Made by a program: the position numbers and the translations under genes. From positions 1-39,744 of the forward strand of contig CAIRTK010000025.1 of NCBI GenBank assembly GCA_903881475.1: a stretch of 39,744 nt of DNA, in the 5' to 3' direction. Shown in pieces: positions 10,511-13,128 of this stretch (positions are counted from its first letter, which is position 1; the number at the start of each line of letters is the position of its first letter). Source of the DNA: an uncultured Opitutia bacterium (GTDB lineage: Bacteria > Verrucomicrobiota > Verrucomicrobiia > Opitutales > Opitutaceae). The notes beneath the pieces are model-generated. The model ran no database searches and was not told the origin of the DNA. It saw only the letters and a list, made by a program, of their open reading frames with translations.

Positions 10511-11032
10511 TCAGGCCTTCAGCAGGCAGCACTGCTTGTACTTCTTGCCGCTGCCACAGGGGCAGGGGTCGTTACGGCCGACTTTGGGCCCAGCGGACTT
10601 GTAAGGGGCGGGTCCAAGCCGGGCCTCGCGGGTGTAGAGCCAGGCTCCATTGATTCGAAGAAACTCGGCTTTTTCGTGCAGCACTTTTTCCACGCCGCCC
10701 TCGGTTCCATAGGCCGAGAAGTCGACGAATGCCTTGTTCGGATTGCCGGTGGTCTCGTGGTTATGGACGACCAGCCTGGTCCATTGCACGGAAGGTTCGC
10801 CTTCCTCCGCCACGTAAGGCGTGCCCGCGGTCGGTCGGTACGAGTGGTGCAGAAACTTGAAATCGTGCGCAACATGCGCCGTGAAGCGGGCGCGCATCAG
10901 CTGCTCCGCGGTCGCGGCCGGGCGCTGGCCGGTCAGGATTGGCTCGCAGCACTGTTCAAACAGCTGCCCGCTGCCGCAGGGGCAGGGCAGTCCGCGCTTC
11001 GGTGAAGGGTCCTTGGTCGGCTCGGATGACAT
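10511..11032 (-). CDS. YchJ-like protein with two SEC-C zinc motifs
   Basis: 173 residues. A SEC-C motif opens the protein ([13 protein letters not shown]) and another closes it ([16 protein letters not shown]). The middle matches the YchJ/UPF0225 domain ([25 protein letters not shown]). SEC-C motifs bind zinc and, in SecA, contact SecB and the ribosome; the function of YchJ-like proteins is not established. The length is close to the E. coli protein. The gene is convergent with the small basic protein to its left, and it may follow the downstream-facing tgt fusion gene on the same strand. Confidence 0.9.
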
Positions 11033-11079: not shown

Positions 11080-13128
11080 TTAGCGACGCTTGCCCGGCCT
11101 TGCCGCGAACTGCGGATGTGCCTCAAAACGCTGTTCGAAAGCGGATCTTTCGTTCACGGCCAGCCCGGGGGGATACTTCGAGTCGCTGCGCCGCCAGCGG
11201 GCAAGCCACTCGTCGCCCAGCAGGCGGGCCGCCGCCGGGTGCCCGCTGGCGCCGGGTTCGTGGGTGAACGCGATGGTTGTCGTGGCCTTCGGGCCGGTGC
11301 CGACGCCCTCGGCCACATGGAAGCCCGACGACAGCAGGGCGACGCGGACCGCGGTCGCGGCGGAGTAGGTATAGAGCTCGGCGGGCTTCGGCCGGCAGTG
11401 GTGAAAGAGCCGCGTGAAAACCGCAAGTGTCCACAGCCCGGTGTCCGTCTTGGCCGAGAACGGATCGTAGAAAATCAGGTCGGGCGCGGGTGATGACTCC
11501 AGGAACCCGAGGAAATCGCCGTGGCGCAGCTCCCACTGGAACAGCTCCGACACATGGGCCCAGCGGCCGGATGCCAGCACGGCATGCGGTGCGCCGTGGC
11601 GGAGGTGCGGAAAGTGGCTGGCAAAGCGCAACGCGAGCTTCAGCGGATCGAGGTCGATCTCAAAGCTCACGAGCCGCAGCGGCCGCACCGCTTCCGGGCC
11701 GCGCGCAGCGAGGGTTTCCTCGAAGCACTGCAGCGCCGCCATGGCGTTCGACGCGGCCCCGAGGCCGACATCCCAGATCACCAGCTCGGCGACATCATCG
11801 GGACGTTTCACAAGCCGTTCCGCCAAGCGGGACTGGGCCACATAGAGGGCGTTGGCCTCCTCACTGGGCCGGTTCACCGAGTGCATCACCTCCCCGGAGC
11901 TGACTTGGCGGATGCTGGAGAAGCCCTGCGGCCCGGTGACGATATCGTAGTCGCCCAGGTGCCTGGGCCGGGCGGGCGCGCGCTTTTTGACCGGGTGGAC
12001 GACATTCTCCTCGTCGCTGCCGCCGAGGTCGTGGCGTTTTGCCTCGTAGTAGGCGGCGAATGTGTCCTGCAGGATGCTTTCCCTCATCTCCCGCATCAGC
12101 CGGTGGTAGAATGCGAAATTATGCACCCCGAGCAGGTGCCAGCCGAGGACCTCGTCGGCCTTCACGAGGTGATGCAGGTAGGCGCGGGTATAGGTCCGGC
12201 AGGTGGAGCAGGCGCAGCCGGCCTCCAGCGGGGCTTCGGACAGCTTGTGTGCCACCCGGCGCAGCTGGAGCTTCCCGGCGAAGGTGAAGGCGACGCCGCG
12301 CTGCGCGAGCTGCGAGGGGATGATGCAGTCGAACATGTCGACCCCGCGGTGAACGGCCTCGAGGATGTCAATCGGCGTGCCCACGCCCATCAGGTAGCGC
12401 GGGAGTTTCTCCGGGAGGTGATCCGTCACGAGCCCGGTGAACTCGTAGCGCTGGGCGTGGGTTTCGCCGACGGCGAGCCCGCCGATCGCGAGGCCGTCGA
12501 ACGGGAGCTGGCTCAGGAAGGCGGCGCTCTTTTTCCGGAGGTCATGGTGACAGGCGCCCTGCACGATGCCGAACAGCGCCTGGGGCGAGTCGCCGCGGGC
12601 GTCGAGCGAGCGGCGCGCCCACCGGTGCGTCAGTTCCATCGCGGCCCGGGCCTCGTCATGCGCGGCGGTGGAGGGAATGCACTGGTCGAGCGCCATCATG
12701 ATGTCGCTGCCGATCACCTTCTGCATCGCGATGCTGGACTCGGGGGAGAGCAGGTGGACGTCGCCGTCGACGTAGCTCCGGAACCGTGCGCCTTCCTCCT
12801 TCATCGCGCGCTCGCCCGGCAGGGAGAAAATCTGAAAGCCGCCGGAATCGGTCAGCACCGGGCGGTCCCAGTTCATGAAGCGGTGGATGCCGCCGAATTT
12901 CCCAAACACCGCGGGCCCGGGCCGGAGCAGCAGGTGGTAGGTGTTGGCCAACAGCACGCTCGCGCCGGTCTCCTTCAGGGTTTCCACCGTCTGGCTTTTC
13001 ACCGTGGCCTGCGTGCCCACCGGCATGAACACGGGGGTTTGCACCGGGCCGTGCAGCGTCTGGAAGGTCGCGGCCCGGGCCTTGGAGTGGCTGGCGGCGC
13101 GGTCGAGCTTGAAGTTGAGGCGTGACAT
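11080..13128 (-). CDS. tgt: tRNA-guanine transglycosylase fused to an MnmC-like methyltransferase
   Basis: 682 residues in one uninterrupted frame. Residues 1-370 are a bacterial Tgt, which exchanges G34 for preQ1 in GUN-anticodon tRNAs: base D94 (TDSGGFQ), nucleophile D267 (GVDMFDC), GGLAVGE at 216-222, and zinc ligands C305, C307, C310 and H336, each three residues after the E. coli positions. Residues about 390-655 resemble the MnmC1/DUF752 SAM-dependent methyltransferase: [12 protein letters not shown] (SAM loop), [26 protein letters not shown] and [10 protein letters not shown]. MnmC1 acts at U34. Both activities modify the wobble base. After D267 the usual PTRNARNG is PSQLAQRG. The ATG at 13128 is chosen because homology begins there; an upstream in-frame extension has no family resemblance. 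Confidence 0.88.

Follow-up and report, generated by a model that had tools for sequence, protein, structure and literature searches.

Bacterial tRNA-guanine transglycosylase (Tgt) is thought to have one job, namely the entry into queuosine (Q), and QueA builds Q on the amine of preQ1 (7-aminomethyl-7-deazaguanine). MnmC2 acts in a different wobble-base pathway, where it methylates the aminomethyl group of nm5U34; preQ1 and nm5U carry the same CH2-NH2 group. That the amine of preQ1 can be N-methylated within a nucleic acid has a reported precedent: DpdM is said (NAR, 2023) to make mdPreQ1 (N-methylated dPreQ1) in phage DNA. DpdM is reported to have an unrelated fold and not to be fused to a Tgt, and its substrate is DNA.

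The window analyzed here, a 39,744-nucleotide stretch of DNA from an uncultured Opitutia bacterium, encodes on its minus strand a protein in which a Tgt domain is followed by a predicted methyltransferase. The gene runs as a single open frame of 682 residues from an ATG at 13128 to a TAA at 11080. The initial annotation had described such an uninterrupted frame holding both a Tgt and a methyltransferase, leaving the strand unstated, and the frame is real, with no stop between the domains. A plus-strand reading of 11080-13128 was rejected, as it contains stops. The features of the locus are as follows.

11080-13128, minus strand: Tgt-MnmC2-like fusion gene, 682 codons, ATG to TAA
12019-13128, minus strand: Tgt domain (queuine tRNA-ribosyltransferase fold), residues 1-370, with PF01702 at 16-365
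12847-12849, minus strand: D94, equivalent to Zymomonas mobilis D102, kept in 36/36 representative fusions
12328-12330, minus strand: D267, the nucleophile, equivalent to Z. mobilis D280, kept in 36/36 representative fusions
12295-12318, minus strand: PSQLAQRG helix, residues 271-278, in which Z. mobilis R286 is replaced by Q273 and R289 by Q276
12121-12216, minus strand: zinc ligands C305, C307, C310 and H336, kept in 36/36 representative fusions
11956-12018, minus strand: linker, residues 371-391, weakly conserved and partly of low pLDDT
11107-11955, minus strand: predicted SAM methyltransferase domain of MnmC2-like type, residues 392-674, its C-terminal extension ending in HPQF
11743-11775, minus strand: SAM motif (motif I of MnmC2 by alignment), residues 452-462
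11428-11466, minus strand: loop corresponding to the catalytic-Asp loop of MnmC2, residues 555-567, with KTD in place of the KN(P) part

The representative fusions are our own selection from 85 rows. Pfam TGT (PF01702) matches the protein at residues 16-365 (E 3.7e-142) and NCBIfam TIGR00430, the model against which the initial annotation had proposed to check this half, scores 436.9 bits, over its cut-off of 306.75. Pfam Methyltransf_30 (PF05430) matches residues 537-620 (E 6.7e-12, 45.8 bits, cut-off 22). An alternative in-frame ATG lies upstream and would give a protein of 791 residues; the 682-residue start was chosen since this is where conservation across the family sets in, and the homology searches were run with this form. 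Both halves are under purifying selection, with dN/dS values of 0.07-0.24 for both halves against six relatives (a seventh pair is saturated). Chance or a frame artefact was rejected as the source of the frame on the strength of the domain matches, the homologues spanning both domains and this selection.

By sequence profile and predicted fold, the methyltransferase half is closest to MnmC2. The predicted model of the domain has a pLDDT of 89.6. The nearest structure by sequence profile is MnmC2 3vyw (E 8.6e-11), Foldseek ranks 2qy6 nearest (E 5.7e-14) and then 3vyw and 3ps9, and VIA-align gives 3vyw a Z of 20.5 (rmsd 3.2 over 240 residues) against 17.2 for the best spermidine synthase. The fused domain has in common with MnmC2 (PF05430/DUF752; Aquifex 3vyw and the N-terminal half of E. 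coli MnmC) the predicted fold, motif I and the Asp of the DPFS loop together with the Trp that follows it. This Asp, D555 here, which we take to be the catalytic residue of MnmC2, is invariant in 26/26 aligned fusions. The fused domain differs from MnmC2 in its KTD loop, in an identity of only ~20-30%, in its C-terminal extension and in its partner, which is a Tgt rather than the FAD domain of MnmC. Moreover, it scores 73.2 bits over 411-620 against NCBIfam MnmC2 NF033855, below the cut-off of 136, whereas the genuine MnmC of genome G223 scores 236.6 bits. The initial annotation had called this half MnmC1/DUF752-like. The PF05430/DUF752 part of that assignment stands, but PF05430/DUF752 corresponds to MnmC2, and the MnmC1 label gives way to MnmC2 because the FAD-dependent MnmC1 domain (TIGR03197) matches genuine MnmC proteins (loci L141 and L142) and has no match in the fusion protein up to E 1.

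Standalone relatives of the fused methyltransferase lie behind ybaB-, recR- and HAD-like genes at L156 5111-6070 and L157 4681-5550, in two genomes that carry the fusion too. The standalone methyltransferase of genomes G227 and G230, both with the fusion as well, is 32-36% identical to the fused domain over 294-306 residues, C-terminal extension included, but is unfused and retains an RN form of the loop. In G230 it follows dnaX-, ybaB-, recR- and HAD-like genes, and in G227 the last three (names assigned by eye). Further PF05430 matches at L148 and L149 are also relatives of the fused domain, and those at L150 and L151 have, by eye only, a spermidine-synthase-type look.

The fusion architecture is conserved as a family. 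A scan of the window protein against a collection with one genome per species confirmed 400 stretches, and among the matches listed both domains were matched in 80/80 loci. The initial annotation had allowed that close relatives might carry two separate genes; those among the matches listed are fused. Alignments begin at query residue 1-4 in 79 of the 80 listed loci; that of L046, which lies at the end of a contig, begins at residue 40. The open frame of L079 as read stops short, after 637 residues. A sample of 120 genomes of the window's family showed no clear split version: G147 likely carries a frameshift, contig ends truncate the stretch in G127 and G204, and one stop falls inside the matched fusion stretch in each of G123 and G212. 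The initial annotation treated this fusion as apparently undescribed, and the titles and abstract openings of the openly licensed papers listed likewise hold no report of it or of N-methyl-preQ1 in RNA, and no occurrence of mdPreQ1. Sequence databases may already contain the architecture.

The main fact, which the initial annotation missed, is that the fused Tgt is an accessory second Tgt, separate from the standalone Tgts beside which it occurs. The standalone Tgt of the window's genome lies at C72:511-1617. At least two TIGR00430 matches are found in 32 of the 33 family genomes with the fusion, the window's included (the exception, G127, is 84% complete), and 18/19 fusion genomes traced from their loci have at least two Tgts (the exception is G230, and four of the 19 duplicate genomes of the family sample). 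Two TIGR00430 matches occur in only 5/87 fusion-less family genomes: in four, one match is incomplete and sits where a contig ends, whereas the fusion-less genome G183 has two long incomplete matches. Replacement of the housekeeping Tgt by the fusion was rejected, given the further Tgt in these 32/33 and 18/19 genomes. In a quick IQ-TREE analysis (74 rows, 72 of them distinct, unrooted), a branch with an SH-aLRT of 100 splits the 36 fusion Tgts from 38 standalone Tgts, and a midpoint-rooted FastTree contains the same fusion group with a support of 0.676.

The record titles of the listed loci mostly name Opitutae, Opitutaceae, Opitutus and Verrucomicrobia, and include IMCC26134 and Geminisphaera colitermitum TAV2. 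Other titles name Deltaproteobacteria, Riflebacteria, Spirochaetes, Betaproteobacteria, Erysipelotrichia, Bacteroidetes and more, mostly as labels of metagenome-assembled genomes that may singly be wrong. Fusions of like-labelled genomes cluster in the tree (L022/L025/L039/L041; L071/L078; L070/L076/L081/L061), and so do their standalone Tgts. Across the window's order, the fused domain is present in 6/103 genomes, of which four belong to the window's family and two to a single other one. The family sample has the fused methyltransferase in 33/120 genomes and 18/49 genera, and the window's genus has it in 2/5 genomes. Identity to the window's fusion Tgt is 70-82% for the fusion Tgts of 13 genomes from other lineages, whereas the standalone Tgts of these genomes are 46-55% identical to that of the window's genome. 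A shallow, patchy fusion group beside deep housekeeping Tgts indicates horizontal spread of the fusion.

The Tgt half matches Z. mobilis TGT in the PDB (E 3.2e-110). The residues named in the initial annotation (D94, D267 and C305/C307/C310/H336) are all present and align with Z. mobilis TGT residues, the zinc ligands with C318, C320, C323 and H349. The likeness to bacterial Tgt (TIGR00430; Z. mobilis, E. coli) extends over the whole domain, the catalytic Asps, the zinc ligands and the preQ1 pocket, whose C158, L231, A232 and E235 (Z. mobilis numbering, here and below) are all retained in the 36 representatives. The fused Tgt differs from bacterial Tgt in being a second genome copy with its own tree group and a C-terminal methyltransferase, and also at E157, R286 and R289. 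The E157 position is Q in 36/36 fusions and E in 38/38 standalone Tgts. The R286 position is Q in 34/36 fusions and R in 1/36, and the R289 position is Q or H in 31/36 and R in 2/36; both are R in 38/38 standalone Tgts. These two arginines are said, in a 2003 study by Xie et al., to contact the RNA beside G34 (U33-G34-U35). Their replacement suggests that the fused enzyme may recognize an RNA target, or an anticodon context, that differs from the usual U33-G34-U35. The available part of one paper places Arg286 at the cavity joining both R34/P35 pockets in a twisted dimer, which is not direct proof of RNA contact (PMC5395182), and the available part of the E. coli TGT-tRNA paper (PMC13416341) names neither residue.

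The standalone Tgts of Opitutaceae have themselves lost two of the four zinc ligands that the 36 representative fusions keep. The C320 position is N in 20/20 Opitutaceae standalone Tgts and in 26/38 standalone Tgts across all lineages, and the C318 position is L, V, A or I in 24/38. The standalone Tgt of the window's genome (locus L091, G000:C72:400-1700) is among those with altered zinc ligands.

QueA is present in 115/120 family genomes; among the 33 fusion carriers it is missing from G127 and G156 only (31/33), and a second set of fusion genomes has it in 21/21. With QueA beside the fusion, preQ1-tRNA is an expected intermediate and a canonical queuosine pathway is to be expected; preQ1 as an end product through loss of QueA was rejected on these counts. 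A queA gene, or a piece of one in G217, adjoins the standalone tgt in 9 of the 19 genomes covered by both the Tgt and the QueA searches, the window's not among them. QueF, the maker of preQ1, was found in all tested fusion genomes of the window's family (no result is given for G127) and is absent or doubtful in 9/16 fusion genomes outside it (G215, G216, G218, G220, G222, G224, G226, G227 and G230). If preQ1 is the base inserted, these nine would have to salvage preQ1 or be incomplete genomes.

The explanation that we favor, tentatively and with a chance a little short of even, is a two-step reaction. The Tgt half would place preQ1 in an RNA in exchange for a guanine, after which the MnmC2-like half would use SAM to methylate the exocyclic primary amine of the inserted base. 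The product would be 7-(methylaminomethyl)-7-deazaguanosine (N-methyl-preQ1). Methylation of the amine would block QueA, so that the site would be a dead end, apart from the queuosine made by the housekeeping Tgt and QueA. The proposal builds on the observed architecture, its conservation as a family, the second-copy status, the catalytic residues, the predicted methyltransferase fold, and the occurrence of QueA, and in some genomes of MnmC or MnmM, alongside the fusion; from these we infer preQ1 as the base, its amine as the acceptor, the order of the steps and the target RNA. N-methylation of preQ1 is favored because the CH2-NH2 group is common to nm5U and preQ1, because the fusion partner comes from the preQ1-installing enzymes and because mdPreQ1 provides a precedent. 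The shared aminomethyl group also gives a chemical reason to an idea of the initial annotation, that the methyltransferase might act on the Tgt product, which we consider better than its U34 idea. Points against preQ1 N-methylation are the doubtful QueF in those nine of 16 genomes outside the family, the two of 33 family genomes missing QueA, the NF033855 score below cut-off, the altered catalytic loop and, within the window's family, the lack of MnmM in all 33 fusion genomes.

The methyltransferase half could instead be the organism's MnmC2, converting nm5U34 to mnm5U34 in split-box tRNAs, with the Tgt half holding the anticodon loop or doing its own G34 job. PF05430 membership and the predicted MnmC2 fold fit this reading, as does the family sample, where MnmM never accompanies the fusion (0/33 fusion genomes vs 15/87 fusion-less; Fisher p 0.0105, by genus 0.020, with no kinship correction) and where the 33 fusion genomes have no other PF05430 match above 30 bits. 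However, both the fusion and MnmM are missing from 72/120 family genomes (the PF05430 search covered part of the 120), so such a double lack is common; the NF033855 score of 73.2 bits is under the cut-off of 136; and the Tgt half retains catalytic residues that docking would not need. Mutual exclusion of MnmM and the fusion as proof of a U34 role is further weakened by G019 and G068 (2/21 genomes), which have both, and the fusion is accompanied by a genuine MnmC, over its cut-off, in G223 and G225, by an MnmC2-like protein that scores under it in G221 and by the standalone relative of the fused methyltransferase in G227 and G230. Because some fusion genomes also have a genuine MnmC or MnmM, U34 methylation is unlikely to be the general role of the fusion, and taken together we consider that the fused domain is unlikely to be the organism's MnmC2. 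The pairing of two wobble activities in the initial annotation, at G34 and U34, therefore fails as a general role (two genomes with MnmC, one with an MnmC2-like protein and two with MnmM). It may apply in the window's own family, where the lack of any other U34 methyltransferase in the fusion genomes favors U34 methylation by the fusion.

It is improbable, in our estimate, that another base is inserted (salvaged queuine or another 7-deazaguanine) or that the methyl goes to a different group (on Q or on a neighboring loop nucleotide): the absence or doubtful presence of QueF in 9/16 fusion genomes outside the window's family, the uniform change of E157 to Q and the changed catalytic-Asp loop would fit, but the pocket residues C158, L231, A232 and E235 are kept and QueA is present in 21/21 genomes. 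The two activities might also be independent, each on its own tRNA, and fused for co-expression only. The full-length AlphaFold model, with a pTM of 0.56 and no confident mutual orientation of the two domains, and the weakly conserved linker agree with this, yet all 80 loci among the matches listed have both domains, no clear split version was seen and a further Tgt could already serve Q34 in nearly all genomes checked, which makes mere co-expression quite improbable. A target in DNA or in an RNA other than tRNA, of the kind seen with DpdA transglycosylases in phages and bacterial islands, is very unlikely indeed; patchy horizontal spread and the changed RNA-contact arginines are consistent with it, but phages, plasmids and viral contigs gave no match to the methyltransferase domain and PADLOC none to the whole protein, the Tgt half scores over the tRNA Tgt cut-off and the gene lacks widely conserved neighbors.

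If insertion and N-methylation of preQ1 is the right explanation, a horizontally spread second Tgt with a built-in methyltransferase would point to an undescribed modified base and perhaps to a new RNA target. The prediction is sharp: a gene-dependent nucleoside equal to preQ1 + 14 Da. The wobble-base chemistries of nm5U and preQ1 would be linked via their common aminomethyl group, and a TIGR00430 match would not always denote a queuosine enzyme. A wider version, in which this second Tgt acts at an RNA site beyond the four GUN anticodons, inserts and N-methylates preQ1 there, yields a QueA-proof, queuosine-independent nucleoside and spreads as a single gene between phyla, we consider unlikely in all its parts.

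Among 81 neighborhoods no neighbor of the fusion is widely conserved, and operon partners were rejected for this reason. The most frequent neighbor clusters are mainly antisense or overlapping frames of the fusion gene itself, and the commonest genuine neighbor is apparently a YihA-like GTPase gene (read by eye), in 19/81 neighborhoods. No tRNA and no Rfam family was found in the window. At 10514-11032 on the minus strand, immediately downstream of the fusion gene, the window encodes a YchJ-like SEC-C protein, whose cluster occurs in only 7/81 neighborhoods. The 15 MnmM-like PF06962 matches of the window's family (G108, G112, G118 and others) lie in frames of 543-691 residues, and MnmM may itself be fused in those genomes.
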